Assembly: GCA_030841085.1 (NCBI GenBank)
Contig: JAVEDP010000021.1
Span: 62,001-126,000, forward strand
Direction of reading: 5' to 3'
DNA: 64,000 nt
From: Pyrinomonadaceae bacterium
GTDB taxonomy: Bacteria; Acidobacteriota; Blastocatellia; Pyrinomonadales; Pyrinomonadaceae
Below the pieces are notes generated by a model. It had not been told where the DNA came from. It searched no databases and saw only the letters and a list, made by a program, of their open reading frames with translations. Shown in pieces: positions 2,101 through 43,895 of this stretch. Numbering within the stretch: the first letter of the stretch is position 1; every line of letters starts with the position of its first letter. The position numbers and the translations under genes are program-made.

Positions 2101-3228
2101 ATGAAACTTAAAGAGACACTCGCCGATCTCGTCGCAATTGATTCTGTCTCAGCGCGCGCAAACGGTCCGGTGATTGACTATCTCGAGACTCATTGCGCAT
2201 CACTCGGTTTCAGCGTGCAGCGCTTTCCTTACACCGACGACAACGGCATCGAAAAAATAAACTTAATGGCCGCCGCTGGTCCGGACTCTACTAACTCGAA
2301 AGTTGAACTCGCATTGGTCGGGCACACCGACACCGTTCCTTACGATCCCAACTGGACCGAAGCGCTGAAGCTCACCGAGCGAGATGGAAAACTTTTCGGA
2401 CGCGGCGCCTGCGACACGAAGGCATTCATTGCGGCCGCGCTGACATCAGTTGAAAGTCTGGATTTGAAAAACTTGCGCCGCCCGTTGGCGCTCCTTTTTA
2501 CGGCTGACGAAGAGATTGGACTGATAGGCGCAAAGCGTTTCGCTGACGAACGTCGAATGCAGGCACGTTTCGCAATTGTAGGCGAGCCGACTTCGCTGCG
2601 GCCGATGCGCGCCGGTAAGGGTTACTGCCTCGCCGAAATAACTGTCAAAGGCCGCGAGGCGCACAGCGCTTATCCGTCGCTTGGCACTTCAGCCGTGTTT
2701 GCCGCCGCGCGTTTACTCGCGCGCATCGAAAACATCGCGAAGAAACTGGAAAGCGAAACGCATCCGGATTTCGATCCGCCGTACACCACGCTCAATGTTG
2801 GTGTGGTCCATGGAGGAACCGCGAAGAACGTTGTGCCTGGTTTATGTAAGTTCACTTTGGAGTGGCGACCGATCCCTGGGCAAAAGCCGGAACGCTTACT
2901 TGACCTGCTGCATGCCGCCATTGCCGAAGAAACCGCGCGCGATGCCAATTTGGTTTTTGCACTCGATGCGGCCCGCGCGGATCAGGGTTTCGAGACATCC
3001 GCGAATTCAGAATTAGTGAAGCTACTTGAAGGGCTAACTGGCAACAGCGCAGGCACGGTCGCATTTGGCACCGAAGCCGCGCAGCTGGCTGAACTAGGGG
3101 CCGAAGCTGTCGTCCTTGGCCCGGGAAACATTCGCGAAGCGCATCGTACCGGCGAGTTTGTGCCGATTTCCGAACTTGAGGCTTGCGTAACGGTTTTGCG
3201 CCAAGCTATTGAGAAATTCTGCTACTAA
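2101..3228 (+). CDS. argE: M20 peptidase, acetylornithine deacetylase type
   Basis: Zinc-dependent amidohydrolase; the best match is N-acetylornithine deacetylase, releasing ornithine and acetate in arginine biosynthesis. The M20 metal site is readable: GHTDTVPYD (residue about 74), GRGACDTKAF (about 100), ADEEIG (about 135, general-base Glu), GEPT (about 161), and a C-terminal histidine in IREAHRTGEF. GRGxCDxKxF is characteristic of the ArgE/DapE subgroup and favours ArgE. I start at ATG 2101 (375 residues, normal family length); the longer in-frame start at 2032 lies in palindrome sequence. Succinyl-diaminopimelate desuccinylase or another acyl-amino-acid deacylase is possible. Being next to hutF may mean a role in amino-acid turnover instead of synthesis. 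Confidence 0.8.
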   Translation: MKLKETLADLVAIDSVSARANGPVIDYLETHCASLGFSVQRFPYTDDNGIEKINLMAAAGPDSTNSKVELALVGHTDTVPYDPNWTEALKLTERDGKLFGRGACDTKAFIAAALTSVESLDLKNLRRPLALLFTADEEIGLIGAKRFADERRMQARFAIVGEPTSLRPMRAGKGYCLAEITVKGREAHSAYPSLGTSAVFAAARLLARIENIAKKLESETHPDFDPPYTTLNVGVVHGGTAKNVVPGLCKFTLEWRPIPGQKPERLLDLLHAAIAEETARDANLVFALDAARADQGFETSANSELVKLLEGLTGNSAGTVAFGTEAAQLAELGAEAVVLGPGNIREAHRTGEFVPISELEACVTVLRQAIEKFCY

Positions 3229-3318
3229 ACCACCCCCAATCAGGACTATCGCGGGCAACTTATATTCCCGGCCCACATCGAAACCTTGTTCGCTATTTCT
3301 TGTTTTGCGATTCTCTCC

Positions 3319-4080
3319 ATGAAAACTTCGTTTGACCTCAATAATCTGAGCGTCGCCACTCCTTGCCCTAAGGCGTGGGCGGATATGGTCGGGGACGACC
3401 GCGTCAGATTCTGCGACCAATGCAGCCTCAATGTTTATAACCTGGCCGAACTTACCGAGAAGGAAACGCAAAGTCTGATCTTGTCTGCGGGAGGAAGAGT
3501 TTGCGGCCGCCTTTTTCGGCGCGCGGACGGAACAGTTTTAACCAAGGACTGTCCGGTCGGCCTGCAGGCGTTGCGAAAACGGATTTCGAGAAAGACGGCA
3601 GCCGTCTTTGCCACGCTGTTGGGGCTGTCGTCCACGATTTTCGCCCAGCACCAGTCCGACAAAGATCGTTGCCAGCAACAGGTTCGAATCAGCAAAGCGC
3701 AAAATGTCGCTCCGGAGAAGGCGCGATTGTGGGGGACGGTTTACGATCCCGCCGGCGCAGTGATTCCAGGAGCCACCGTGTTAGCCAGGGACAAGAAGAC
3801 CGGCGTTTCCACTGCCGTCCTGACGAACGACGATGGTCAGTTCACATTCGCGTCTTTGACTGAGGGAAACTATTCACTGACAATCACACTTAGTCCTTTT
3901 ACGAGCTTGACGGTTAAAGATTTAGTGCTTGAAAAGAAAGCAGCTCTGAATATTGACATCACGCTGGAACTTTCAGGCGCCGAGGTGGTTGGTTTACTGA
4001 TTCCGGAGCCATCGATGATCGACCTGCCGCCTAGCCCTTTTACGATTAGCAGAGATTTACTTACCCGCTTGCCGCATTAA
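3319..4080 (+). CDS. membrane protein with Cys-rich N-terminus and carboxypeptidase-regulatory-like domain
   Basis: No known enzymatic role. From ATG 3319 the protein has a cytoplasmic N-terminal module with CPKAW (about residue 16) and FCDQCSLNVYN (31-41), spacing that suggests a small metal-binding or redox-active cysteine cluster. I have seen the same CPK(A/S)W...RFCxxC layout in proteins of Acidobacteria and Bacteroidetes. A hydrophobic segment at about 93-109 (AVFATLLGLSSTIFAQ) is a membrane anchor. Residues 136-216 (LWGTVYDPAGAVIPGATV ... TLELSG) form a CarboxypepD_reg-like beta sandwich, presumably periplasmic. An upstream in-frame start at 3286 is possible but adds a stretch unlike the family. 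It is followed after 22 bases by another exported protein. Confidence 0.7.
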   Translation: MKTSFDLNNLSVATPCPKAWADMVGDDRVRFCDQCSLNVYNLAELTEKETQSLILSAGGRVCGRLFRRADGTVLTKDCPVGLQALRKRISRKTAAVFATLLGLSSTIFAQHQSDKDRCQQQVRISKAQNVAPEKARLWGTVYDPAGAVIPGATVLARDKKTGVSTAVLTNDDGQFTFASLTEGNYSLTITLSPFTSLTVKDLVLEKKAALNIDITLELSGAEVVGLLIPEPSMIDLPPSPFTISRDLLTRLPH

Positions 4081-4102
4081 CTAATCAAAAGTAATTAATC
4101 AT

Positions 4103-5188
4103 ATGAGACGACAGTTTTCTCTTCTTTCATTATTGTTCATCCTTCTCAGCCCACTGCTGATCGTGGCCCAGACGTCTGCGCCGCTAACCAGCAAGGACCT
4201 GGTTACGCTTGTTTACCAACTGCCAAAGCATCCTGAGCTGCGCGACGAACTTGTCGCCGACATTCGCAAGCGCGGTATTTCTTTTCCGCTTACCGATGGC
4301 ATGCGTTCCCTGGTAGCGACCAAGAGCGGCAACGATTCGTTGCTGCGCCGGACGCTGGAGGAAGCCGAACGCCGGCGAGTGAACCCGGCCGTTTCAACGC
4401 TGCCGCCGGAACGCGAAGGAAACGAATTGTTGGAGCGCGCGCGCTCGGCCACGCTGGCTGCGGCCGATGCGATGCCTGACTTTATCGTTAAGCAACTGAT
4501 CAAACGTTCACGTGCCTACGGCAACACGAACAACTGGCTGCCGCAGGACAACCTGACCATCGCCGTGGCCTACCGCGCCAATGCGGGCGAACAATACAAA
4601 GTGTTGGCAGTGAATGGAGTGCCGCGCGCGCAGGAAACGACGCAGAAACGGGACTACAGCAAGGACGTCGACCCGGGTACCACCTCCAGCGGAGTTGAAT
4701 ATATTTCCGCCGTCGCCGATGTCTTCAAGCCTGAATCGGACGCGAAGTTTAAGCTCGTCGACACAGACCTAATCCAGGGCCGCCACACGCTGGTTTACGA
4801 GTACGAGGTTTCCCGCGACCTTTCGCAGTTGACGTTGCGTGCCGGCGAAGTTGAGCCGGCCGTAGTCGGCTCGCGCGGCAGGATCTGGATCGATCGCGAA
4901 CTGAGTCGCGTCTTGCGCTTTGAGCAGATCGCCACGCAAGTACCTCCGGACTACCCGATTCGCGCGGCCTCAACTTTGATCGACTACGAATGGGTCGCTA
5001 TCGGCGAAAATAAGTTCCTGCTGCCCACTCATTCCGAGATTCTGCTAACCAACGTCGGGCGCGGCGTAACGGTTCAGAGCCGTAACGACATTCGCTTTCG
5101 CGGTTATCAGAAATTCGGCGCCGAGCTTAAGGTGATCGATGAGATTGACGAGAAAGACTTTCCACCCGACAAACCAGAGAAGCCATAA
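4103..5188 (+). CDS. secreted protein of unknown function
   Basis: Starts with a clear Sec signal peptide (MRRQFSLLSLLFILLSPLLI, cleavage near VAQ at 21-23), so it is periplasmic or outer-membrane associated. The next about 100 residues are helical and charged; residues from about 130 on look like beta strands with alternating hydrophobic positions (QYKVLAVNGVP, HTLVYEYEVSRDLS, RIWIDRELSRVLRFEQ). That resembles the lipoprotein-localisation or outer-membrane-lipoprotein-sorting fold seen in other acidobacterial proteins, but I cannot assign a family. It lies 22 bases after the membrane protein gene and may be co-transcribed with it. Confidence 0.65.
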   Translation: MRRQFSLLSLLFILLSPLLIVAQTSAPLTSKDLVTLVYQLPKHPELRDELVADIRKRGISFPLTDGMRSLVATKSGNDSLLRRTLEEAERRRVNPAVSTLPPEREGNELLERARSATLAAADAMPDFIVKQLIKRSRAYGNTNNWLPQDNLTIAVAYRANAGEQYKVLAVNGVPRAQETTQKRDYSKDVDPGTTSSGVEYISAVADVFKPESDAKFKLVDTDLIQGRHTLVYEYEVSRDLSQLTLRAGEVEPAVVGSRGRIWIDRELSRVLRFEQIATQVPPDYPIRAASTLIDYEWVAIGENKFLLPTHSEILLTNVGRGVTVQSRNDIRFRGYQKFGAELKVIDEIDEKDFPPDKPEKP

Positions 5189-5475
5189 CGGAATTGAAAA
5201 TGAAGCCACGGATGCCTGGTTGACTCCTCTCGGCCTTGAAAAGCCGGGCTAACCTCGTCTTGACGCTACGCGTCTGAAATCAAGTAACTACTCATCTTTT
5301 TGTCCACGCCTGTAGACACGCCGTATCCGATTGTCTCCAAAGCAGCACAGGAAAGACTTATTGCTAGTGCGGCATCCGGATTATGAGTCATCACATAGTT
5401 CCCGCGTTGCGGCTGGTACGGCCATTGCGCTGACCTCCTTCAATCGAAGCTGTTGTCGGTCGAAGGAGTTCGCCC

Positions 5476-5865
5476 ATGAAGCCCAGAGTCCTTATCGTCG
5501 ATGACGATGAAGCCATTACGCAACAAATGTTCTGGACGCTGAACGATGACTATGACGTCATCACCGCAAACGATTTGCCCTCCGCCGTGCGCCGGGCTAC
5601 CGTCTACGAACCCGCCATTTCTATTCTCGATCTGCATCTTCCTCCCGAATCCAGCTCGCCCGAAGTCGGATTGCGTATACTGGAATACATCAAAGGTCAC
5701 CTGCCGAGAACCAAGGTGCTGGTGATGACCAGCGCCAACTCCGACAACGTTCGCGAGGAATGTTTTGCGCAGGGCGCGGACGAGTTTCTCAACAAACCTT
5801 TCGATACCGAATTGCTGATCGCCATCATGCGCCGCCTGGCGCCGCATTCACTCGATCTCGCTTAA
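5476..5865 (+). CDS. stand-alone response regulator receiver domain
   Basis: Single CheY-like receiver of 129 residues with no output domain. The acidic pocket is DDD at 9-11, the phospho-acceptor is Asp52 in SILDLHLPP, the switch Thr is in VMTSAN (about 86) and the conserved Lys is 108 in NKPFD. An ATG 11 bases after GAAGGAG fits a good ribosome binding site. No histidine kinase is adjacent; the only kinase in the window is at 59-61 kb. It probably relays phosphate or acts by protein-protein contact. The sequence is close to the receiver part of NtrC-like PEP-CTERM regulators, but there is no AAA+ domain here. Confidence 0.9.
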   Translation: MKPRVLIVDDDEAITQQMFWTLNDDYDVITANDLPSAVRRATVYEPAISILDLHLPPESSSPEVGLRILEYIKGHLPRTKVLVMTSANSDNVREECFAQGADEFLNKPFDTELLIAIMRRLAPHSLDLA

Positions 5866-5910
5866 GGAAGAATCCCGTTTAAGCTGATATTGTTCTGCTG
5901 TTGTCCTCTG

Positions 5911-5996
5911 TGCGTCCTTTGTGTTCTCTGTGTCTCCGTGGTGAATCTGACTGATCATTAGTCCACCACCAGGACACAGAGGTCACAAAGGACGCA
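5911..5996. repeat. long palindrome, TGCGTCCTTTGTG-type (family f)
   Basis: Left arm 5911-5943 (TGCGTCCTTTGTG...GTGGTG) and right arm 5964-5996 (CACCACC...CACAAAGGACGCA), 33 bases each with a few mismatches and a 20-base spacer. It lies between the receiver gene and the LON gene and contains no reading frame. Confidence 0.8.
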
Positions 5997-6142
5997 CGGA
6001 GAAAAATTTAGATCCACACTTAGCCTCTCGGCTTCCCTGCTGACTTCCGTCTAATCGTCTGCGATAATGAACACCTCGCGATAATTGTTCTTCAAACTTG
6101 ATGGCACAACTCTACAGTTCGTGATTACTCGGCTAACAATTA

Positions 6143-6844
6143 ATGAGTGAAGCGTTTGACAAAGTAACAGGCGTGAGCGAGCTGCCGATTTTCCCTCTGG
6201 CGCTAGTGTTGTTTCCCGGTGTGCCGCTGCCGCTGCATATTTTTGAGCCGCGCTACCGGCAAATGCTGAATGACGTGCGCGCGGGCAATGGTCTATTCGG
6301 CGTTGCCTATTACGATGCTTCGACTGCGGAGCAGGACATGCCGGCGCCCGGCCATGTTGGTTGTGTGGCCGAAGTCACTGAGACACAGACGATGCCGGAC
6401 GGCCGATCAAATATTCTTACCGTTGGCATCATTCGTTATCGGCTCGAGGAATACGTCGAGCGCAACGATTCTTATCTGCTGGCCCGCGTCAGTTATTTTG
6501 AGGACGACGAAGAAGATGCGACTTTGCTGAGCGAGAGCGCTCGCGACGTGGCCGAAACTTTCACGCGCATCGCCCGCGCCGTGCGCGCTATCAACGATGA
6601 GCGCGCGCACTTGCCGGACATTTCTGATACCGAGCCGCAACGGCTTTCGTTTCTGGTAGCTGCCGCGATGGAAGTGGATACCGACGTCAAGCAGGACCTG
6701 CTGGAGCTGCGTTCAACTTCTGAGCGACTGGAGCGTTTGCGCAACATGCTCAGCCACGCCGTGTCCAGCTATGAAGAACGCGCGCGCGTGCATCAGTTGG
6801 CAAAAGGGAATGGTCACAGTGGTAAGAAACTTGATCTTGAGTAG
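6143..6844 (+). CDS. LON substrate-binding domain protein
   Basis: Cytosolic 233-residue protein with only the N-terminal, PUA-like substrate-binding domain of Lon protease. The motif LPIFPLALVLFPGVPLPLHIFEPRYRQM is at residues 14-42, followed by GCVAEVTE and GIIRYRLEEY. There is no AAA+ ATPase or Ser-Lys protease domain. Family members are usually annotated as LON peptidase substrate-binding domain proteins; their function is unknown, possibly as an adaptor. The C-terminal 100 residues are helical. The stop codon is immediately followed by a hairpin (6845-6864). Confidence 0.9.
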   Translation: MSEAFDKVTGVSELPIFPLALVLFPGVPLPLHIFEPRYRQMLNDVRAGNGLFGVAYYDASTAEQDMPAPGHVGCVAEVTETQTMPDGRSNILTVGIIRYRLEEYVERNDSYLLARVSYFEDDEEDATLLSESARDVAETFTRIARAVRAINDERAHLPDISDTEPQRLSFLVAAAMEVDTDVKQDLLELRSTSERLERLRNMLSHAVSSYEERARVHQLAKGNGHSGKKLDLE

Positions 6845-6864
6845 GACAGACATTCTTGTCTGTC
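6845..6864. repeat. hairpin GACAGACA/TGTCTGTC directly after a stop codon (family k)
   Basis: Perfect 8-base stem with TTCT loop, starting at the base after the LON gene's TAG. No T-run follows, so it is not a typical terminator. Confidence 0.6.
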
Positions 6865-6903
6865 AGGTTCGGAATAAATGCTTTGGATTGAAATCAAAAA
6901 GCA

Positions 6904-7056
6904 GATTTTCCATTTGCGATTTACCATTTTTCATTTGTCATCGGTACGAATTTTTGGCTACTTCGGGCCCCTTGTTGATCGAAAATCGCCGGTGATAGAG
7001 ACGGAGTCTTCCTCCTCACTGGCAAATGAGAAATGATAAATGGCAAATGGTAAATC
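6904..7056. repeat. long palindrome, GATTTACCATTTGCC-type (family c)
   Basis: Left arm 6904-6940 and right arm 7020-7056, about 37 bases each with few mismatches, 79-base spacer. The arms are AT-rich iterations of CATTT(T/G). They fill most of the 252-base gap between the LON gene and moaDE. Confidence 0.75.
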
Positions 7057-7096
7057 TATGTAACTCGTGGCTGACTACCTGTGAACAGGAACGCAA

Positions 7097-7867
7097 GTGT
7101 CTGAGCAAGATAATAACAACCGCAGAGTGACGGTCCTTTTCTTCGGCGCCACGCGCGATATCGTGGGCCAGCCGGAGATGCAACTTGTCTTGCCTGTTAA
7201 GACCGCAGCAGCAGCGTTCGAGAACCTGTTGGAGAAGTTTCCCGAACTGCGCCGCTTTGGACGTTCGCTGTTGTTTGCGGTGAATCAGGAATATGCGCAG
7301 CCGGATCGTGAAATCAACGACGGCGATGAGCTGGCTCTGTTCCCTCCAGTAAGCGGGGGCTGTGCAGCTCCAAAACACAACGCCGAAGAAACTGAAGCCC
7401 GCGTCACTGAGACCGTCTCAACCTCGCTCAACGACTTCTTTGAACTAACGACCGAGCCGATCGACGTCGGCGTTGTCGCTCGCAGAGTTGTGTTGCCGGA
7501 ATGTGGCGCAACAGTGACGCTGGATGGTTACGCACGCGAATGGACGCGCGGGCGGCGGACTTTATATCTAGTCTACGAAGCCTACGCGCCGATGGCGCTC
7601 AAAGAGCTGGAGCGACTCGAACGCGAAGCTCATCAGCGCTTTGAGATTGCGCACATTGGCATCGTGCATCGCACCGGCCGTTTGGAGATTGGCGAAACGA
7701 GTGTCGTCATCGCCGTCAGCGCGCCGCATCGACAAGCAGCGTTTGCAGCGGGCGAATGGGCGATACGCGAACTAAAACGCACCGTGCCCATTTGGAAGAA
7801 AGAGATTTTTGAAGACGGTGAAGTTTGGGTTGAGGGGGAAGCAAGGAATCCTGTAACAAAACCGTAA
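7097..7867 (+). CDS. moaDE: fused molybdopterin synthase, MoaD-MoaE
   Basis: Both subunits of molybdopterin synthase in one chain; the enzyme inserts two sulfurs into cyclic pyranopterin monophosphate to make molybdopterin. Residues about 10-90 are MoaD (ubiquitin fold, VTVLFFGATRDIVG ... LALFPPVSGG), residues about 105-256 are MoaE (TLDGYAREWTRGRRTLYLVYEAYAPMALKEL, IVHRTGRLEIGE, SAPHRQAAFAAGEW, WKKEIF). The GG that carries the thiocarboxylate in free MoaD is at 87-88 and is followed by CAAPKHN and a linker, so it would need cleavage to become a free C-terminus, as reported for the fused mycobacterial MoaX. Starts with GTG 7097 after AACAGGA. No other moa gene is adjacent. Confidence 0.92.
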   Translation: MSEQDNNNRRVTVLFFGATRDIVGQPEMQLVLPVKTAAAAFENLLEKFPELRRFGRSLLFAVNQEYAQPDREINDGDELALFPPVSGGCAAPKHNAEETEARVTETVSTSLNDFFELTTEPIDVGVVARRVVLPECGATVTLDGYAREWTRGRRTLYLVYEAYAPMALKELERLEREAHQRFEIAHIGIVHRTGRLEIGETSVVIAVSAPHRQAAFAAGEWAIRELKRTVPIWKKEIFEDGEVWVEGEARNPVTKP

Positions 7868-8448: not shown

Positions 8449-11010
8449 TCATTCGGAAACCTCTTCAGTCTCTTCTTCCGCAGCGGCCTCAACCAACGAA
8501 GCGCTTGTCACTCGATCGCCTTCTTCGGTTTTGATTAGCCTAACGCCCTGGGCGCTGCGTCCCGTTTTGCGAATGCTGTCGGCCTCGATGCGGATCAGTT
8601 TGCCTTGCTGCGTGATGATCATTATTTCCGACTCGGCATCAACTGGAAATACCGCAACGACTTTTCCGGTCTTGTCGGTCGTCTTCATGTTGATGACTCC
8701 CTTGCCGCCACGCGACTGCAAACGATAGGTCGTGATTGGAGTTTGCTTGCCATATCCCTGTTCCGAAACGGAAAGCATCTTCTCAGAATCGTCGGCAGAG
8801 ACAGGACAGACCGAAACCACGTAATCGTCCGCGCGCAAATTTATTCCGCGCACGCCGCGAGTGGCCCGGCCCATTGGCCGCACGTTCTTCTCGTCAAAAC
8901 GAATTGCCAAACCATTGTGGGTAGCGATGAAGATGCGTTTCGTGCCGTCGGTCAACACGACGTCGAGCAACTGATCGCCGTCGTCAATGTTGATTGCGAT
9001 AATGCCGTTGGTACGAATGTTCTGAAAGTCAGCCAGCGACGTCTTCTTGATGACGCCTTTGCGCGTGACCATCAGGACGTAACGGCCTTCGGCGAATTCT
9101 CGCACCGGCACCACGCCGGCGAGTTTTCGCTCAGAAGGAATATTGATGAGATTGACGACTGCTTTACCGCGCGCCGAGGCGGCAGCGTCCGGCACTTCAT
9201 GGACTTTCAATTTATAGACCATGCCGTCGTCGGTAAAAATCATGATGTAAGCGTGCGTCGAAGCGATGAAAAGATGTTCGACGTAATCGCTGCCCTTGGC
9301 AGCCGCGCCGAATCTTCCCTTGCCGCCCCGTCCTTGCCGTTGATAGGTAGTGATCGGCGTCCGCTTGATGTAGCCGCTGTTGGTCACGGTGATGGCGACA
9401 TCTTCGTCGGCGATCAGATCCTCGATCGAGAATTCAACGCCTTCGTCGACGATCTCGGTACGACGCCCGTCGCCAAAGTCTTTCTTGACCTCTTCAAGCT
9501 CGTTTCCGATCACACGACGCAGCGAACTCTCGTTGCCCAAAATTTCTTCCAGCTCGGCGATCAGCTTGATGATGCCTTCGTATTCGTCTGTGATCTTTTG
9601 TCGTTCGAGCGCGGCCAGGCGGCGCAACTGCAGATCGAGAATCGCCTGGGCTTGCAGTTCGGAAAAGCCCAGTCGCTCCATTGCTTTTTGCAGTTTGGGA
9701 ACATAAGCCTTGACCGTCGTGTCCGAAGGAATTCCCTTCCAGGTCTTCACTTCGCTCATTGTCTTCGTCTGGCCCGTCAACCACAGCCGTGCCTGATCGA
9801 CCGAGTTCGAGTTGCGAATCAAGGTGACGATGAAATCCAGCGCATCGATTGCTTTCGTCAATCCTTCGAGGATGTGCGCGCGCGCGCGTGCCTTGCGCAG
9901 TTCGTATTCGGTGCGCCGCCGTACGACTTCGCGACGAAAGTCCACGAAGCACTCGAGCATCTGTTTCAGATTGAGCACGCGCGGCTGGCCGTTGACGATG
10001 GCCAGGTTGATAACGCCAAACGACGACTGCATCGGCGTCAGCTTGTAAAGTTTGTTGAGAACAATCTGGGGCACAGCATCGCGCTTTAACTCAACGACGA
10101 TACGCATGCCGGTGCGGTCCGACTCGTCGCGCAGGTCCGAAACGCCATCGAGCTTTTTCTCGTTGATGAGTTCGGCGATGCGTTCAATCAAGCGCGCCTT
10201 GTTAACCTGGAAAGGAATTTCCGTAATTACCACTGCATCGCGTTCGCCCGTGCCGCGACCAATGCGGTCAATTCCCGCGCGCGCACGCATCTGAATGATC
10301 CCGCGCCCGGTCAGATACGACTTCCTAAGCTCCTCGCCGCCATAAATAAAACCGCCGGTTGGGAAGTCCGGCCCGGTTACGATTTTCAACAAAGCTTCGA
10401 TAGCGATATCCGGCTTGCGCAGCAGAGCCAACGTGGCATCGATAATCTCGGTAAGGTTGTGCGGCGGAATCTTCGTCGCCATTCCTACCGCAATTCCATC
10501 CGAACCATTAATCAGCAGGTTGGGAATTCGCGTCGGCAGTACCTTGGGCTCGCTCAACGACTCGTCGTAGTTTGGCTGAAAATCGACTGTCTCTTTTTCA
10601 AGATCCGTCAGCACCACGTTCGTCACGCGGGCCATGCGAATTTCCGTGTAACGCATTGCCGCCGCAGCGTCGCCATCGACCGAGCCAAAGTTTCCCTGGC
10701 CGTCAACCAGCGGATAGCGCATGGAAAAATCCTGCGCTAAACGCACGATCGTGTCGTACACCGCCGTGTCGCCGTGCGGATGATATTTACCAATCACGTC
10801 GCCGACGATGCGCGCGCTTTTCTTGTATGGCTTGTTGTAGGTGTTGCCGAGTTCGTGCATCGCCCAAAGCACACGCCGGTGCACGGGCTTCAATCCATCA
10901 CGCACGTCCGGCAGAGCGCGCCCAATGATTACGGACATTGCATAATCGAGATACGATCGCCGCATCTCGTCTTCTATGTTTATATGATCGCGTTCAGAAG
11001 TGGTTTCCAT
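8449..11010 (-). CDS. gyrA: DNA gyrase subunit A
   Basis: Type IIA topoisomerase subunit that cuts and rejoins DNA during ATP-driven negative supercoiling with GyrB. From METTSERD (11010) the protein has 853 residues. The quinolone region HPHGDTAVYDTIVR lies at 77-90, with Thr82 where E. coli has Ser83 and Asp86 at the Asp87 position. The catalytic Tyr is 121 in AAMRYTEIRM. The C-terminal beta-pinwheel carries a GyrA-box-like QGRGGKG and a second SRGGKG repeat, and the chain ends with an acidic tail, favouring gyrase over ParC. A start seven codons further upstream (11031) is possible. No gyrB lies in the window. Confidence 0.96.
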   Translation of the reverse strand: METTSERDHINIEDEMRRSYLDYAMSVIIGRALPDVRDGLKPVHRRVLWAMHELGNTYNKPYKKSARIVGDVIGKYHPHGDTAVYDTIVRLAQDFSMRYPLVDGQGNFGSVDGDAAAAMRYTEIRMARVTNVVLTDLEKETVDFQPNYDESLSEPKVLPTRIPNLLINGSDGIAVGMATKIPPHNLTEIIDATLALLRKPDIAIEALLKIVTGPDFPTGGFIYGGEELRKSYLTGRGIIQMRARAGIDRIGRGTGERDAVVITEIPFQVNKARLIERIAELINEKKLDGVSDLRDESDRTGMRIVVELKRDAVPQIVLNKLYKLTPMQSSFGVINLAIVNGQPRVLNLKQMLECFVDFRREVVRRRTEYELRKARARAHILEGLTKAIDALDFIVTLIRNSNSVDQARLWLTGQTKTMSEVKTWKGIPSDTTVKAYVPKLQKAMERLGFSELQAQAILDLQLRRLAALERQKITDEYEGIIKLIAELEEILGNESSLRRVIGNELEEVKKDFGDGRRTEIVDEGVEFSIEDLIADEDVAITVTNSGYIKRTPITTYQRQGRGGKGRFGAAAKGSDYVEHLFIASTHAYIMIFTDDGMVYKLKVHEVPDAAASARGKAVVNLINIPSERKLAGVVPVREFAEGRYVLMVTRKGVIKKTSLADFQNIRTNGIIAINIDDGDQLLDVVLTDGTKRIFIATHNGLAIRFDEKNVRPMGRATRGVRGINLRADDYVVSVCPVSADDSEKMLSVSEQGYGKQTPITTYRLQSRGGKGVINMKTTDKTGKVVAVFPVDAESEIMIITQQGKLIRIEADSIRKTGRSAQGVRLIKTEEGDRVTSASLVEAAAEEETEEVSE

Positions 11011-11346
11011 CCGTTGACCTTTCCAGTACAATCCGCCCGCCGTGGGACTTCATTTTGCTAAACTTAAACGTCCGCTTCGCGACATAACCAGCCCCGGCCA
11101 GGCAGTATGTTTTTCGCGTCTTAAAGTGGTTGTGGTTCGCGCAGAATCTAGTTCAAAATGGGCGCTCTGAAGTAAGGATTATTGTAGTCGATCAAGCACC
11201 TTTGTGGCAAACTGAAAAGGGACAAAAACCTAATAAAATCAAGGGCTTCGGTTAAGATTTAGCTTTTAAGATTTGCGCTTATGCCCCGGCGCCAACAGTT
11301 TTCTGTCCGCCCCCTGAATTCTGGACGATCAAGTCGAATCTTCACC

Positions 11347-12072
11347 ATGCCTGAAGAGCGAAAATGGAAGCGAATACGCGAGCGCTTGGAGCTGAAATTG
11401 CCCGTGCGCGTACATTGCCGCGAGACTACGGATTTGGAGTGGACTGAGATTACGCGGTTGATTGACGTTACTCCGTTTGGCGCCGGCTTTACCTTGAAAC
11501 GTCCGGTAGAAAAAGGGCGGCTGCTGCACATGACCATACCAATGCCGCGCCAGTTGCGCGTATTCGATCATGTGGAAGATCAATATCGAGTGTGGGCTTT
11601 GGTGCGTTACATAAAACGAGCTGCTTCCGCGGGTGCCACGCCGCAGTTTGAAGTTGGCGTCGCGTTCATCGGCAAGCGGGCGCCTCGCAGTTATGAGGAA
11701 AATCCTGCCAAGCGATATGAGATTGGGGCACTGTCAGCCGAGAGCTTGAGTTCGCTGCAGGAGTGGCAAGAGGAATCAGCATCTTCCGACAAACGCAGAC
11801 TGACACGCCACAACATTCCCGTCGATATGTTGATTGAAACGCTTGACGATAAGGGCGCCGTAGAAACGAGCGAGCATACGGTGTCTGAAAACATCAGCTT
11901 GCGTGGGGCGGCGATTTACACGACGCTTGATTTGCCGGTTGGCCGTTTCATCCGCCTGTCGAGCGAGCAGTACAAAGTCACAGTCTACGCAGCAGTGCGC
12001 GCCAGCAGCATGGGGCCATCGGGCGTCCCGCGTGTTCATGTCGAGTTTGTCGATCGCGAGTGGCCTTTATAG
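11347..12072 (+). CDS. protein with two PilZ-like domains
   Basis: Cytosolic 241-residue protein that appears to hold two PilZ domains in tandem: RIRERLELKLPVRVHCRE ... EITRLIDVTPFGAGFTLKRPV in the first half and RRLTRHNIPVDMLIETLDD ... HTVSENISLRGAAIYTTLDL in the second. PilZ domains often bind cyclic di-GMP through RxxxR and (D/N)xSxxG. Here the second copy has N-x-S-L-R-G and an upstream RRLTRHN, while the first has D-V-T-P-F-G, so binding by the second is plausible. No partner gene indicates the output. A start at 11281 is also open. Confidence 0.75.
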   Translation: MPEERKWKRIRERLELKLPVRVHCRETTDLEWTEITRLIDVTPFGAGFTLKRPVEKGRLLHMTIPMPRQLRVFDHVEDQYRVWALVRYIKRAASAGATPQFEVGVAFIGKRAPRSYEENPAKRYEIGALSAESLSSLQEWQEESASSDKRRLTRHNIPVDMLIETLDDKGAVETSEHTVSENISLRGAAIYTTLDLPVGRFIRLSSEQYKVTVYAAVRASSMGPSGVPRVHVEFVDREWPL

Positions 12073-41749: not shown

Positions 41750-41858
41750 TCTTGCGCTTACCGGCGGCCGAACCAAAACAGGTCGGGCTGCCAGTTCGCT
41801 CAACTAACTCTTGCTTTCCCGTCGGCTATGAAGGTAGCATTCGCCTGGTCACAGTTCG

Positions 41859-41887
41859 CTTGCCGGGTATGCAAGATACCCGGCAAG
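41859..41887. other. perfect 12-base-pair hairpin
   Basis: CTTGCCGGGTAT/ATACCCGGCAAG with a GCAAG loop, in the space between the convergent DNA ligase and peptide genes. No T-run follows on either strand, so simple intrinsic termination is not obvious. Confidence 0.75.
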
Positions 41888-41945
41888 TCTCGATGGGGCT
41901 AAAGCAAGACTCTAACCAGTTTGAAAAGCGCTCTTTATCCAGTTT

Positions 41946-42173
41946 TCAGTACATCGACAAGAGCGTCAGTAAGACGTCGCTAAGCATGCTGGCCTCCAAA
42001 TCACCAAGCTCTATATTGTTGTTGGCTGGTGGGGCAGGAGGATTGGTTAAGATTGTGACAGTCGGATCGGCGGTGCGCGCCGCACCTGGGGCGGCGATGT
42101 CGCCCGCAAATGCTGAAATGCTAAGGATTAGACTCAGAACAATTGCCGTGCAGAACGCTTTCATCGTTTTCAT
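41946..42173 (-). CDS. small exported peptide, possible signal for the divergent regulator
   Basis: 75 residues. MKTMKAFCTAIVLSLILSISAFA is a clean Sec signal peptide with an AFA cleavage site, leaving about 52 residues: Gly/Ala/Pro-rich start, then a linker with PPAPPANNN, and a C-terminal amphipathic, hydrophobic end (DVLLTLLSMY). A strong ribosome binding site (GGGAG, seven bases before ATG 42173) supports the start. I recognise similar small exported proteins with a LLxLLS-type end from other acidobacterial genomes, but cannot cite a family. It is transcribed away from the TPR/Fis regulator at 42336. A 195-residue frame on the opposite strand is judged spurious. Confidence 0.7.
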   Translation of the reverse strand: MKTMKAFCTAIVLSLILSISAFAGDIAAPGAARTADPTVTILTNPPAPPANNNIELGDLEASMLSDVLLTLLSMY

Positions 42174-42272
42174 GGTTTTCTCTCCCATTCGGTTTTTTCG
42201 GGTTAAAAGGTCGATAAAGGCAGTTGAGCGCGAAGGTGGGAGGCCAACTGCGGAACCGCTAAACGCCGCGCA

Positions 42273-42286
42273 TCATATCGATATGA
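42273..42286. promoter_or_regulatory. perfect 14-base palindrome, candidate operator
   Basis: TCATATCGATATGA lies in the 162-base space between the divergent peptide and regulator genes, 50 bases before the regulator ATG. A perfect palindrome of this size is a reasonable site for a dimeric helix-turn-helix protein. Confidence 0.45.
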
Positions 42287-42291
42287 CAACT

Positions 42292-42311
42292 TTCTTGCAA
42301 GGATTCTTGCA
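42292..42311. promoter_or_regulatory. direct repeat TTCTTGCA, 12 bases apart
   Basis: Two copies of TTCTTGCA spaced by about one helical turn, just before the regulator's ribosome binding site (AGAGG). A possible activator or RNA polymerase contact site. Confidence 0.35.
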
Positions 42312-42335
42312 TCTCAGACAAAGAGGTACCCTCAC

Positions 42336-43895
42336 ATGAAAATAGACACTATGGTTTCAGCGAAAAACGAGGGCGTCAGGACAGGCGCAACCTCTCAAGT
42401 AGCGGTAATTTGCGGGCGTGCCAAAGAGATGGAAGAGGCGGGCGAATATGAGGCTGCGCGCGCAGTCATGAGTCCGCTTTGGCAGCGGATTGGTGAGCGT
42501 CCCGAGGTCGCTGGTGGCAGCGAATTGGATCGGGCAGAGGTGTTTCTGCGCGCGGGCACTCTCTCCGGCTGGCTGGGCAGCGCCAGGCAAATTCCCGGCG
42601 CACAGGAGTTTGCCAAGGACTTGATTTCCGAGTCCGCCCGGCTTTTCGAAGCATCTGAACTATCGGAGCGTGCGGCCGAAGCTCGGGTGGATCTCGCAAT
42701 CTGTTATTGGCGCGAAGGTGCTTTTGATGAAGCACGCGTCACTTTGGACGATGCAATCCGGAAGCTCGGCAATCCTCAGAGCGAGCAACACCTGCGTGCG
42801 TTACTGAACAAAGCCGTCGTGGATAGGACTTCAAATCGTTATGAAGATGCGTTGCGTACTCATCGCGAAGCAACCGCGCTCTTTGTGTATAGCAGCAACG
42901 ATAGTTTGAAGGCTAAGTTCCACAGCGAACACGCAACCATACTGAAGAATATTGGTCTCGCAAATAATCGCGAGGATTATGTGGACCAGGCGTTGGTTGA
43001 ATATTCAGCCGCAAGTTTTCACGCCGAGAAAGCAGGCAACAAGCGCTCTCAGGGCTTAATCGAAAACAACGTCGGCTATCTTTTTGTGCGCCTTGGCCGC
43101 TTTGCGGACGCGACCGAGCATCTTGATCGCGCGCGCTTACTTTTCGGGGCCGTCAAGGACAAGGGCATGGTGGCGCAGGTCGATGATACGCGCGCGCGTG
43201 CTCTGATTGCTCGGGGCAGTTTCACGACTGCTGAGGCAGTGGCGCGCGGCGCCGTTCAGGCATTTAACGAAGGCGATGAGCCCTCGCTGCTCGCGGAAGC
43301 ACTGACCACGCACGGTACAGCGCTAGCGCGCTTGGGCAACTTCTCGAAAGCGCGCGCGTCGCTGGAGAGGGCCATCCGCGTGGCCCACGACGCCGGTGAT
43401 GCAGAAAGCGCGGGAATCGCATCATTGGCTATGGTTGAAGAGTTAGCCGCCCAACTTCCCTTTGCGGACTTGACTGCATACTACCGAATGGCGGAGTCGG
43501 AGTTAGGTAATTCCCAACACCCCGAAATACAAAATCGTCTTGGCAAGTCTGCCCGGCATTTTCTAGTGACGCGCGTTACTTCTGGCTCTCAGCAAAACAA
43601 CAACGATCATAGTTTGCGCGAAGACATGGCGCTTACCCTGCAATCAGCGACCGCAGTTTCAGCCTCGCCGGGTTTTTCCACCGATGTTTCGCTTGAAGAA
43701 CACGTACTGCGTTATGAGGCCGACTTGATCAGCCGAGCGCTGGCCGCGTCCGACGGTAGCGTTACGCGGGCTGCTCGAATGTTGGGCGTTACGCATCAGG
43801 GCCTGGCTTTTATTCTTAATGGCCGGCACAAAGATTTGCTTTCGGCGCGCAAGCCAGTTAAGCGTCGCCGGCGCAGCATTATTCGATATCGTTAG
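42336..43895 (+). CDS. TPR-repeat regulator with C-terminal Fis-type helix-turn-helix
   Basis: 519 residues, no signal peptide or TM. From about 20 to 400 the protein is built of helical pairs of TPR type, for example LDRAEVFLRAGTLSGWLG, ARVDLAICYWREGAFDEARVTLDDAI, NNVGYLFVRLGRFADATEHLDRARLLF and THGTALARLGNFSKARASLERAI. The C-terminus (about 445-505) reads SLEEHVLRYEADLISRALAASDGSVTRAARMLGVTHQGLAFIL, a Fis/NtrC-like HTH. TPR domains in regulators often bind peptides or proteins. The basic end KRRRRSIIRYR fits DNA contact. It is divergent from the small exported peptide gene. Confidence 0.8.
   Translation: MKIDTMVSAKNEGVRTGATSQVAVICGRAKEMEEAGEYEAARAVMSPLWQRIGERPEVAGGSELDRAEVFLRAGTLSGWLGSARQIPGAQEFAKDLISESARLFEASELSERAAEARVDLAICYWREGAFDEARVTLDDAIRKLGNPQSEQHLRALLNKAVVDRTSNRYEDALRTHREATALFVYSSNDSLKAKFHSEHATILKNIGLANNREDYVDQALVEYSAASFHAEKAGNKRSQGLIENNVGYLFVRLGRFADATEHLDRARLLFGAVKDKGMVAQVDDTRARALIARGSFTTAEAVARGAVQAFNEGDEPSLLAEALTTHGTALARLGNFSKARASLERAIRVAHDAGDAESAGIASLAMVEELAAQLPFADLTAYYRMAESELGNSQHPEIQNRLGKSARHFLVTRVTSGSQQNNNDHSLREDMALTLQSATAVSASPGFSTDVSLEEHVLRYEADLISRALAASDGSVTRAARMLGVTHQGLAFILNGRHKDLLSARKPVKRRRRSIIRYR

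Follow-up and report, generated by a model that had tools for sequence, protein, structure and literature searches.

The locus

The stretch of DNA analysed here, hereafter the window, comprises 64,000 nucleotides (nt) of a Pyrinomonadaceae bacterium (Acidobacteriota; assembly GCA_030841085.1, contig JAVEDP010000021.1, positions 62,001 to 126,000). The subject of this work is a pair of divergent genes in the window, of which one codes for a small exported-type peptide of 75 residues (41946..42173, minus strand) and the other for a regulator of 519 residues (42336..43895, plus strand), the candidate peptide receptor. Their start codons are 162 nt apart. The regulator consists of a superhelix of tetratricopeptide repeats (TPR; residues 21–423, 42396..43604, plus strand; Pfam TPR_12, E 4e-14) and a Fis-type helix–turn–helix (HTH) domain (residues 453–504, 43692..43847, plus strand; Pfam HTH_8, E 2.4e-6, residues 461–490). 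A previous reading of the letters alone (the sequence-only reading) had proposed that the two genes could form a peptide-sensing or self-regulating pair analogous to the RRNPP systems of Gram-positive bacteria, with the HTH at the opposite end of the chain, where Pfam indeed places it, and with the C-terminal end of the peptide as the likely signal.

The small protein, which belongs to the family described below by its position and anatomy, has a basic N-terminus, a hydrophobic core and a cleavage-like site between SAFA and GDIAAPG. A hand-written sequence rule predicts a signal peptide of 23 residues that ends in SAFA (42105..42173, minus strand). The mature N-terminal motif GDIAAPG (42084..42104, minus strand), the candidate signal moiety, is present in a single clear copy; a possible degenerate second copy, GDLEAS (41988..42005, minus strand), is identical at 3/6 positions, which is not significant (shuffle fraction 0.375). 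The protein ends in the hydrophobic tail DVLLTLLSMY (41949..41978, minus strand), and hydrophobic ends are general across the family. A Shine–Dalgarno-like GGGAGAG is read 6 nt before the ATG (42180..42186, minus strand); an alternative in-frame ATG at 42188, 15 nt upstream on the same strand, would give a protein of 80 residues. The peptide has no match in Pfam at E ≤ 1, and in NCBIfam it has two weak matches, both far under their cut-offs.

Recurrence of the pair

The same arrangement is found repeatedly in the genome of this organism (4.69 Mb, 43 contigs), which encodes eight full-length TPR/Fis regulators plus some fragments. The other seven are 38–41% identical to the window regulator over the aligned part, and a divergent small open reading frame (ORF) with a signal peptide is present at 8/8 loci, some of which have several peptide ORFs (two at L016, three at L018). 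The fragments at C12 286078–287219 and C22 115696–116013 (L020–L022, L025) are apparently decaying copies of the regulator; upstream of the L020 fragment no peptide was found.

In a larger set of loci, 124 non-identical regulators have upstream DNA that can be read, and a divergent peptide lies beside 116 of them; many of the 124 are related and hence not independent. This set was obtained from 142 non-identical receptor ORFs of the fetched loci, fragments counted, by setting aside 18 that had a cut 5' end, a score below 250 bits or less than 250 nt upstream. The 116 peptides comprise 108 that satisfy a rule on the signal peptide and the start of the mature chain, five accepted by eye (L088 and L124, plus L058, L090 and L170, where the contig ends within the peptide ORF) and three that fail the mature-start rule yet are plain (L078, L146 and L190). 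As a control, the rule was applied beside 90 other ORFs from these loci and was positive at 4, which do not resemble the family; every ORF that matched either receptor profile was dropped from this control, the control ORFs were taken as open frames whether genes or not, and a further 83 had too little upstream DNA. An earlier control (6/102) was flawed in that it could include distant receptors of the superfamily, and it has been replaced; two of its six matches (L232 and L236) are family-like peptides at loci of another TPR gene. The pair arrangement is more than chance. The divergent pair that the sequence-only reading described is therefore real, most regulators do have the small exported neighbour whose general absence that reading had named as counter-evidence, and the family is larger than it supposed.

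A conserved neighbourhood with no functional interaction could give similar counts: two divergent genes may simply have inherited a common promoter, all loci come from one receptor family and some of them are syntenic (L027–L032). This explanation sits badly with a pair that stands at 116/124 regulators, at eight places in one genome, with various outputs and on phage-like contigs, and we find it hardly credible.

A scan of GTDB contigs with a profile of the eight receptors, whose reach was limited by its pattern step, returned 40 loci, and every one of them comes from a record with Acidobacteria, Acidobacteriota, Blastocatellia, Pyrinomonadaceae or Chloracidobacterium in its title. In the window's own family, 51 of 119 genomes have matches at E ≤ 1e-30, as do 28 of 69 good assemblies (12 candidates scored per genome). 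Across the phylum, matches were found in at least 9 of 396 genomes with the TPR profile (E ≤ 1e-35) and in at least 10 of 396 with the profile of a fifth receptor type described below (E ≤ 1e-30), all of them in the window's family; both counts are lower bounds, with four candidates scored per genome.

The window pair is flanked by genes that we named by eye from their translations as an ATP-dependent DNA ligase and a DsbA-like protein. The loci of the closest receptors (L027–L032, L041 and L057) have neighbours in common, several of which resemble these flanks (ligase, TatA-like and DsbA-like, by eye), so the window pair appears to lie at an old, fixed place. Among the neighbours of the 40 named loci, 19 ORF clusters recur in at least three loci; those that were looked at are antisense-looking or low-complexity ORFs, or neighbours that syntenic loci such as L027–L032 have in common. 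A small membrane protein with IPGVGQLYNGRILAGILWLIITPG lies beyond the peptide gene at L013 (3586–3903) and L046 (762–992), two related loci from two genomes.

Peptide precursors

The precursor set holds 123 distinct sequences, after removal by hand of two look-alikes. They are 50–108 residues long (median 79) and have a common anatomy: a signal peptide, an AxA-type site, a short motif at the mature N-terminus, a mostly proline-rich linker and a hydrophobic C-terminal tail. The commonest letters of the motif are G, D/E, I/M, a variable residue, T/S and P/G (consensus G-[DEN]-[IM]-x-[TS]-[PG]). The last 12 residues have a mean hydropathy above 0.5 in 98% of the precursors, and the last residue is F or L in 75 of them. 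The sequence-only reading had mentioned a family of small exported proteins with LLxLLS-like ends and had made its case depend on the conservation of the tail; such a family exists, and its tail is conserved.

The motif hexapeptide is found again downstream (at least 4/6 identities) in 69 of the 123 precursors, as against 4.0 expected from shuffled remainders and 9.9 when the remainders of other precursors are used. Fifty-four precursors have one copy, 50 two, 12 three, four have four and three have five. The copies are alike inside one precursor and unlike between precursors, 116 different hexapeptides being present in the set. The mature part of L019, for instance, reads GDLPTAGLTSP-GDLPTAGISSP...GDLPTAGLAEQ and that of L017 GNIPTTDSPAP-GNIPTTDAQAA-GEIPSTDSQAA-GTIPTSD, each followed by a hydrophobic end; the peptide that accompanies a kinase-type receptor has GNITSRT four times and then GNITSRA.

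The copies also change together. For the 97 precursors with a receptor in alignment A4 (239 pairs, receptors 60–97% identical), the first copies show 689 differences, of which the best second copy mirrors 208 (30.2%); when the second copy is sought in the related precursor, with the same best-match search, the value is 13.1% (standard deviation 2.2, maximum 21.2% of 500). The copies are therefore held alike within a precursor while their spelling drifts among paralogues. A first version of this test (66 precursors, 146/305 mirrored against a null of 9%) was set aside for the present one, because a second copy chosen by match leans to agreement. The ratio of nonsynonymous to synonymous differences (pN/pS) is below 1 in 18/18 hand-chosen pairs of peptide genes and 0.43 when pooled, with dN/dS of 0.17–0.53; judged by these ratios, the peptide genes evolve at the protein level. 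As far as the sequences tell, the strongest signal-like feature of these proteins is the mature N-terminal motif, which is present in two to five copies in 69/123 precursors and differs between precursors.

Receptors

The TPR region is shared by at least five output types, which the sequence-only reading did not foresee. Beside the Fis type of the window, it is found with a Fis HTH and a response-regulator receiver (L034, Pfam), with a sigma-54-type AAA+ domain and a Fis HTH (L035, L161), with a histidine kinase and receiver (L191), and with a LexA-like domain. In the Fis-receiver, AAA+ and kinase types, the open frame spans about 630–900 residues. The C-terminal domain of the fifth type (distant members L196–L199 and L204) has no Pfam match in the three proteins searched; its structural model has a predicted local distance difference test (pLDDT) of 86.5 and its leading Foldseek matches are the C-terminal domains of LexA, UmuD and lambda repressor, which points to a LexA-like fold. 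Divergent signal-peptide ORFs are present at all five of these loci, with a GxMGxG-type motif repeated at L197, L199 and L204, the last having three peptide genes in a row.

The output types were labelled by rule. A quick tree built from 104 TPR regions requires, as drawn, 15 changes among the first four types, some branches being weak; this is somewhat too many, because L160, which is truncated at its 3' end, is labelled A and its near-twin L143 B (L041, L054, L057, L078 and L118 also run off the sequence at the 3' end). If the well-supported branches alone are counted, type A must have been gained or lost 9 times and type B 8 times, numbers that are somewhat inflated by a truncated ORF. Fifteen AAA+ receptors (L101, L035, L133 and others) were inspected for the sigma-54 contact loop, which reads GSFTDA in six, GSFTGA in three, GSFAGA in two, GSFKDA in one and GAFRGA in one, whereas no such loop was found in L111 or L158; some AAA+ receptors may therefore not act on sigma-54.

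The AlphaFold2 model of the window receptor has a mean pLDDT of 90.5. In VIA-align it matches the Rap protein of phage Phi3T with its pheromone (8rsv, Z 29.3, 355 residues, root-mean-square deviation 4.9), Rap F with an inhibitory peptide (4i9c, Z 28.9), Rap with CSF (4gyo, Z 27.5), NprR (5dbk, Z 27.0) and AimR (5zvw, Z 22.8). Among the best 60 of 78 matches of a sequence profile, RapI (E 8e-6) and NprR (E 1e-5) rank below stronger generic TPR proteins. The model supports a superhelix of the peptide-binding type, with RRNPP proteins not singled out. The receptors may or may not share descent with Rap, Rgg, NprR, PlcR, PrgX and AimR, since generic TPR proteins have the same fold and match the profile better.

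Phage-like contigs

In IMG/VR, the TPR profile picked out three loci on contigs that the database classes as viral, and at each of them a signal-peptide ORF is divergent from a receptor gene; such copies are another extension of what the sequence-only reading described. The contigs of L238 and L240 may possibly be plasmids or integrative elements. No relative emerged when viral sequences were scanned with A3 and A1, and the receptors of L240 and L239 recovered their own contigs only.

The pair L239/L242, on a contig of 73 kb, has a TPR-only receptor of about 235 residues and a peptide whose mature part is GNIETNG...LLSIVQSVLALF; genes for NinB, a helicase, a primase and a DNA methyltransferase lie within about 8 kb. 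The receptor of this contig, which with its divergent peptide is placed at L242 (IMGVR_UViG_3300021067_000042, 10019–10726) and L239 (2701–2871), has no visible DNA-binding domain, as in Rap. The pair L240/L241 (53 kb) has a TPR receptor whose end is LexA-like by eye and which adjoins an HTH repressor-type gene, in a stretch that also carries O-like replication and ParA/ParB-like genes; the layout at L241 (IMGVR_UViG_3300034251_000012, 9207–11542), with an HTH repressor-type gene, a divergent exported peptide and the TPR receptor adjacent to each other, is arbitrium-like. At L238 (93 kb), one stretch (2562–7113) contains a peptide, a TPR–AAA+–Fis receptor and, 0.7 kb downstream of the latter, a phage-type integrase gene.

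Intergenic region

A promoter scan of positions 41800–42400 found one sigma-70-like site (0.4 sites expected), which faces the peptide gene: TTGCAA-17-TATGAT (42272..42300, minus strand), a match to the consensus at 9/12 positions and a consensus match only. Its -35 box is overlapped by the palindrome CTTGCAAG (42294..42301, no strand assigned), a candidate operator, which is found in 31 of 108 intergenic regions of the family against 0.6 expected from Markov shuffles. By output label, it is present in 22/53 regions of the Fis type, 6/14 of the AAA+ type, 1/34 of the Fis-receiver type, 2/5 of partial receptors and 0/2 of the kinase type. At 42295..42311 (no strand assigned) lies a double site, TTGCAAGGATTCTTGCA, which is the sole exact match of its pattern in the genome. 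A regulon could not be listed, because TTGCAAGGNNNCTTGCA occurs once in the genome, at the window locus. We dropped a sigma-54 promoter reading of the double site because the other paralogues do not conserve its second half.

This organisation also bears on the idea that the peptide is a product under control rather than a signal, that is, a secreted, membrane-active or antimicrobial repeat peptide with a regulator beside it that senses something else. The hydrophobic tail would suit such a product, the regulator adjoins its presumed target with an operator-like site, and a second exact double site is not found in the genome. We noticed no recurrent immunity or modification gene beside the pair, in neighbourhoods that are only partly annotated, and repeats that are private to each precursor, together with at least five outputs, including histidine kinase–receiver and LexA-like ones, suit signalling better. 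We therefore regard the controlled product as improbable.

Proposed mechanism

We think that the window probably holds an RRNPP-like peptide signalling pair of a diderm phylum, whose ligand would be the repeated motif of the mature N-terminus and not the C-terminal end. The sequences themselves show the anatomy, the pairing, the repeats with their concerted change, the variety of outputs and the recurrent operator-like palindrome; the steps that we infer are export, processing, re-import, binding and autoregulation. The propeptide would be sent out of the cytoplasm via the Sec pathway, signal peptidase would free an N-terminus that starts with a short private motif (GDIAAPG here, and repeated further on in many relatives), and the motif copies would be excised by proteases. 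The short peptide would then return to the cytoplasm via an oligopeptide permease and dock in the concave groove of its cognate TPR receptor, which would change the activity of the attached output. In the window, this output would be the Fis-type HTH acting on the shared intergenic operator, so that the pair would regulate at least itself. A route for re-import is possible, since genes for oligopeptide-binding proteins and permeases stand in a row on contig C2 of the genome (40.9–46.7 kb).

Several points weigh against this proposal. The peptide would have to pass the outer membrane, a barrier for which no route is known here. The window precursor has a single clear copy of the motif, like 54/123 precursors, and most intergenic regions lack CTTGCAAG, above all those of the Fis-receiver type. 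Eight of the 124 regulators have no divergent peptide (L050, L073, L076, L082, L105, L154, L164 and L165). No export, protease or permease gene was found linked to the pairs, in a comparison that was blurred by antisense ORFs and by the partial annotation of the neighbours. The fold alone does not indicate a peptide receptor, because the best structural matches of the model include eukaryotic TPR proteins and MalT (APPBP2, 8jal, and a chain of the anaphase-promoting complex, 5g04, both Z 30.2; MalT domain III, Z 27.2). Lastly, in a Mantel comparison the relatedness of the receptors is followed by the tail (r 0.45) better than by the motif (0.25), the linker (0.26) or the signal peptide (0.14), and the covariation of motif and receptor columns is not significant (maximum 0.160, shuffles up to 0.176, 97 pairs). 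Regarding the regulators that lack a peptide, the region upstream of L154, L164 and L165 is taken by other ORFs, and L154 and L164 cluster on the tree; such orphan receptors would be a useful contrast.

The Mantel result is an argument for a signalling pair whose ligand is the hydrophobic tail, as in the streptococcal systems of short hydrophobic peptides (SHP) and Rgg, the N-terminal motif then serving in processing or export. That the tail is hydrophobic in nearly all precursors and commonly ends in F or L agrees with this idea, and so does the gene order, Rgg–SHP pairs being often divergent. On the contrary, the tails are alike among paralogues of one genome (LTIISLAVG, LTIISLVVG, LTIISLVAG) and would not readily keep receptors apart, there is one tail per precursor whereas the motif is multiplied and differs between precursors, and a passive element would likewise follow the phylogeny of the receptor. 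We consider the tail an unlikely ligand. The claim of the sequence-only reading thus stands in part: conserved divergence, a true family and a fold that aligns with Rap, NprR and AimR favour a peptide-sensing pair, whereas the C-terminal end looks less like a signal than the multiplied motif does; the tail keeps its standing as a candidate because it is conserved and tracks the relatedness of the receptors better. From the sequences, the repeated mature N-terminal motif is the likely ligand, and the tail probably helps in export, membrane retention or processing.

It could also be that the TPR protein captures the precursor before export, inside the cytoplasm, and so monitors its secretion or synthesis, with no communication between cells. 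The problems of re-import and of the outer membrane would vanish, and TPR domains commonly bind extended chains. A motif that lies just behind the presumed signal peptidase site, is multiplied and is privately spelled is more than a monitor seems to need, and we judge this explanation very unlikely. The excised and re-imported motif remains the reading that we prefer.

Comparison with known peptide-signalling systems

According to passages of PMC10075063, RRNPP systems have a five-point signature: a propeptide of 10–100 residues, Sec export, a receptor of 250–500 residues, TPRs and adjacency of the two genes. An N-terminal output of the receptor is implied in parts of PMC9765709. The window propeptide, with 75 residues, is within the size range; Sec export is predicted from the sequence, the hand-written rule giving clear n-, h- and c-regions in the precursors; the receptor has TPR_12 and other Pfam TPRs in a predicted superhelix; and the genes are directly adjacent in the window, as they are at 116/124 regulators. 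The receptor, at 519 residues and more in the other types, is too long, and the HTH or other output is C-terminal. We did not file the window pair as RRNPP because of this length and of the output at the opposite end; that it works like an RRNPP system is, by analogy, the best reading.

Among the closest known systems is Rap–Phr with duplicated pheromones, in which, as predicted here, a Sec-type propeptide lies beside a TPR receptor of matching superhelix (8rsv, 8rtc, 8rte), pheromone copies are repeated in the propeptide and the systems occur on phages. Rap is not known to have a C-terminal HTH. Rap–Phr comes from Bacillota and its mature pheromone is usually C-terminal (PMC10075063, in part), whereas here the motif is mature N-terminal, in up to five copies with a hydrophobic tail behind, and the genes are divergent. 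Excerpts of PMC11343458 describe Phr3T and Phr105, which come from Bacillus phages, as duplicated pheromones whose copies are more conserved than the intervening stretches; by its sequence, the acidobacterial repeat pattern is of the same kind and more extreme.

In NprR–NprX and PlcR–PapR the TPR receptor itself binds DNA and the exported propeptide is encoded next door, as proposed here. NprR and PlcR have an N-terminal HTH, in contrast to the C-terminal, Fis-type HTH of the window regulator. Rgg–SHP systems share a short peptide with a hydrophobic C-terminal end, and to our knowledge SHPs have no repeated motif. They differ further in that SHPs are exported by PptAB and have no recognised Sec signal, according to passages of PMC10075063. 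Like the present pairs, AimR–AimP associates a TPR receptor and a propeptide on phages, and AimR aligns with the window model as given above. Here, the phage-like contigs carry Acidobacteria-type systems, any role of theirs in lysogeny would be hypothetical, and the phage-like receptors are one TPR-only, one TPR with a LexA-like end and one TPR–AAA+–Fis protein.

Cytoplasmic TPR receptors for exported peptides are treated in Bacillota and their phages alone in passages of PMC10075063, PMC9765709 and PMC11343458. In the open PubMed Central literature (subscription papers and preprints being outside the scope) we found no paper on such pairs in Acidobacteria, and the papers that name both arbitrium and Acidobacteria are, judged by excerpts, unrelated to them.

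Significance

This large family of peptide–receptor gene pairs from soil Acidobacteria and some phage-like elements is apparently undescribed and has the build of the peptide signalling of Gram-positive bacteria. Private repeat peptides and the TPR receptors matched to them form a real and recurrent family that is, in our view, new. A wider picture, in which a diderm phylum has a peptide language of its own, with many private multi-copy words, one intracellular TPR input, DNA-binding, phosphorelay, AAA+ and LexA-like outputs, and adoption by phages for arbitrium-like decisions, is one that we put forward tentatively, as somewhat more doubtful than not.

Acidobacteria are common and little understood soil bacteria, and here they present a rich paralogous system whose candidate signal is legible in the sequence. 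The receptors are a natural set with one input and several outputs, and the system raises the question of how a peptide would cross the outer membrane twice. Since most of the 116 different candidate hexapeptides have a neighbouring receptor, binding can be tested singly with cheap synthetic peptides, and peptide "talk" in a Gram-negative phylum would become testable.

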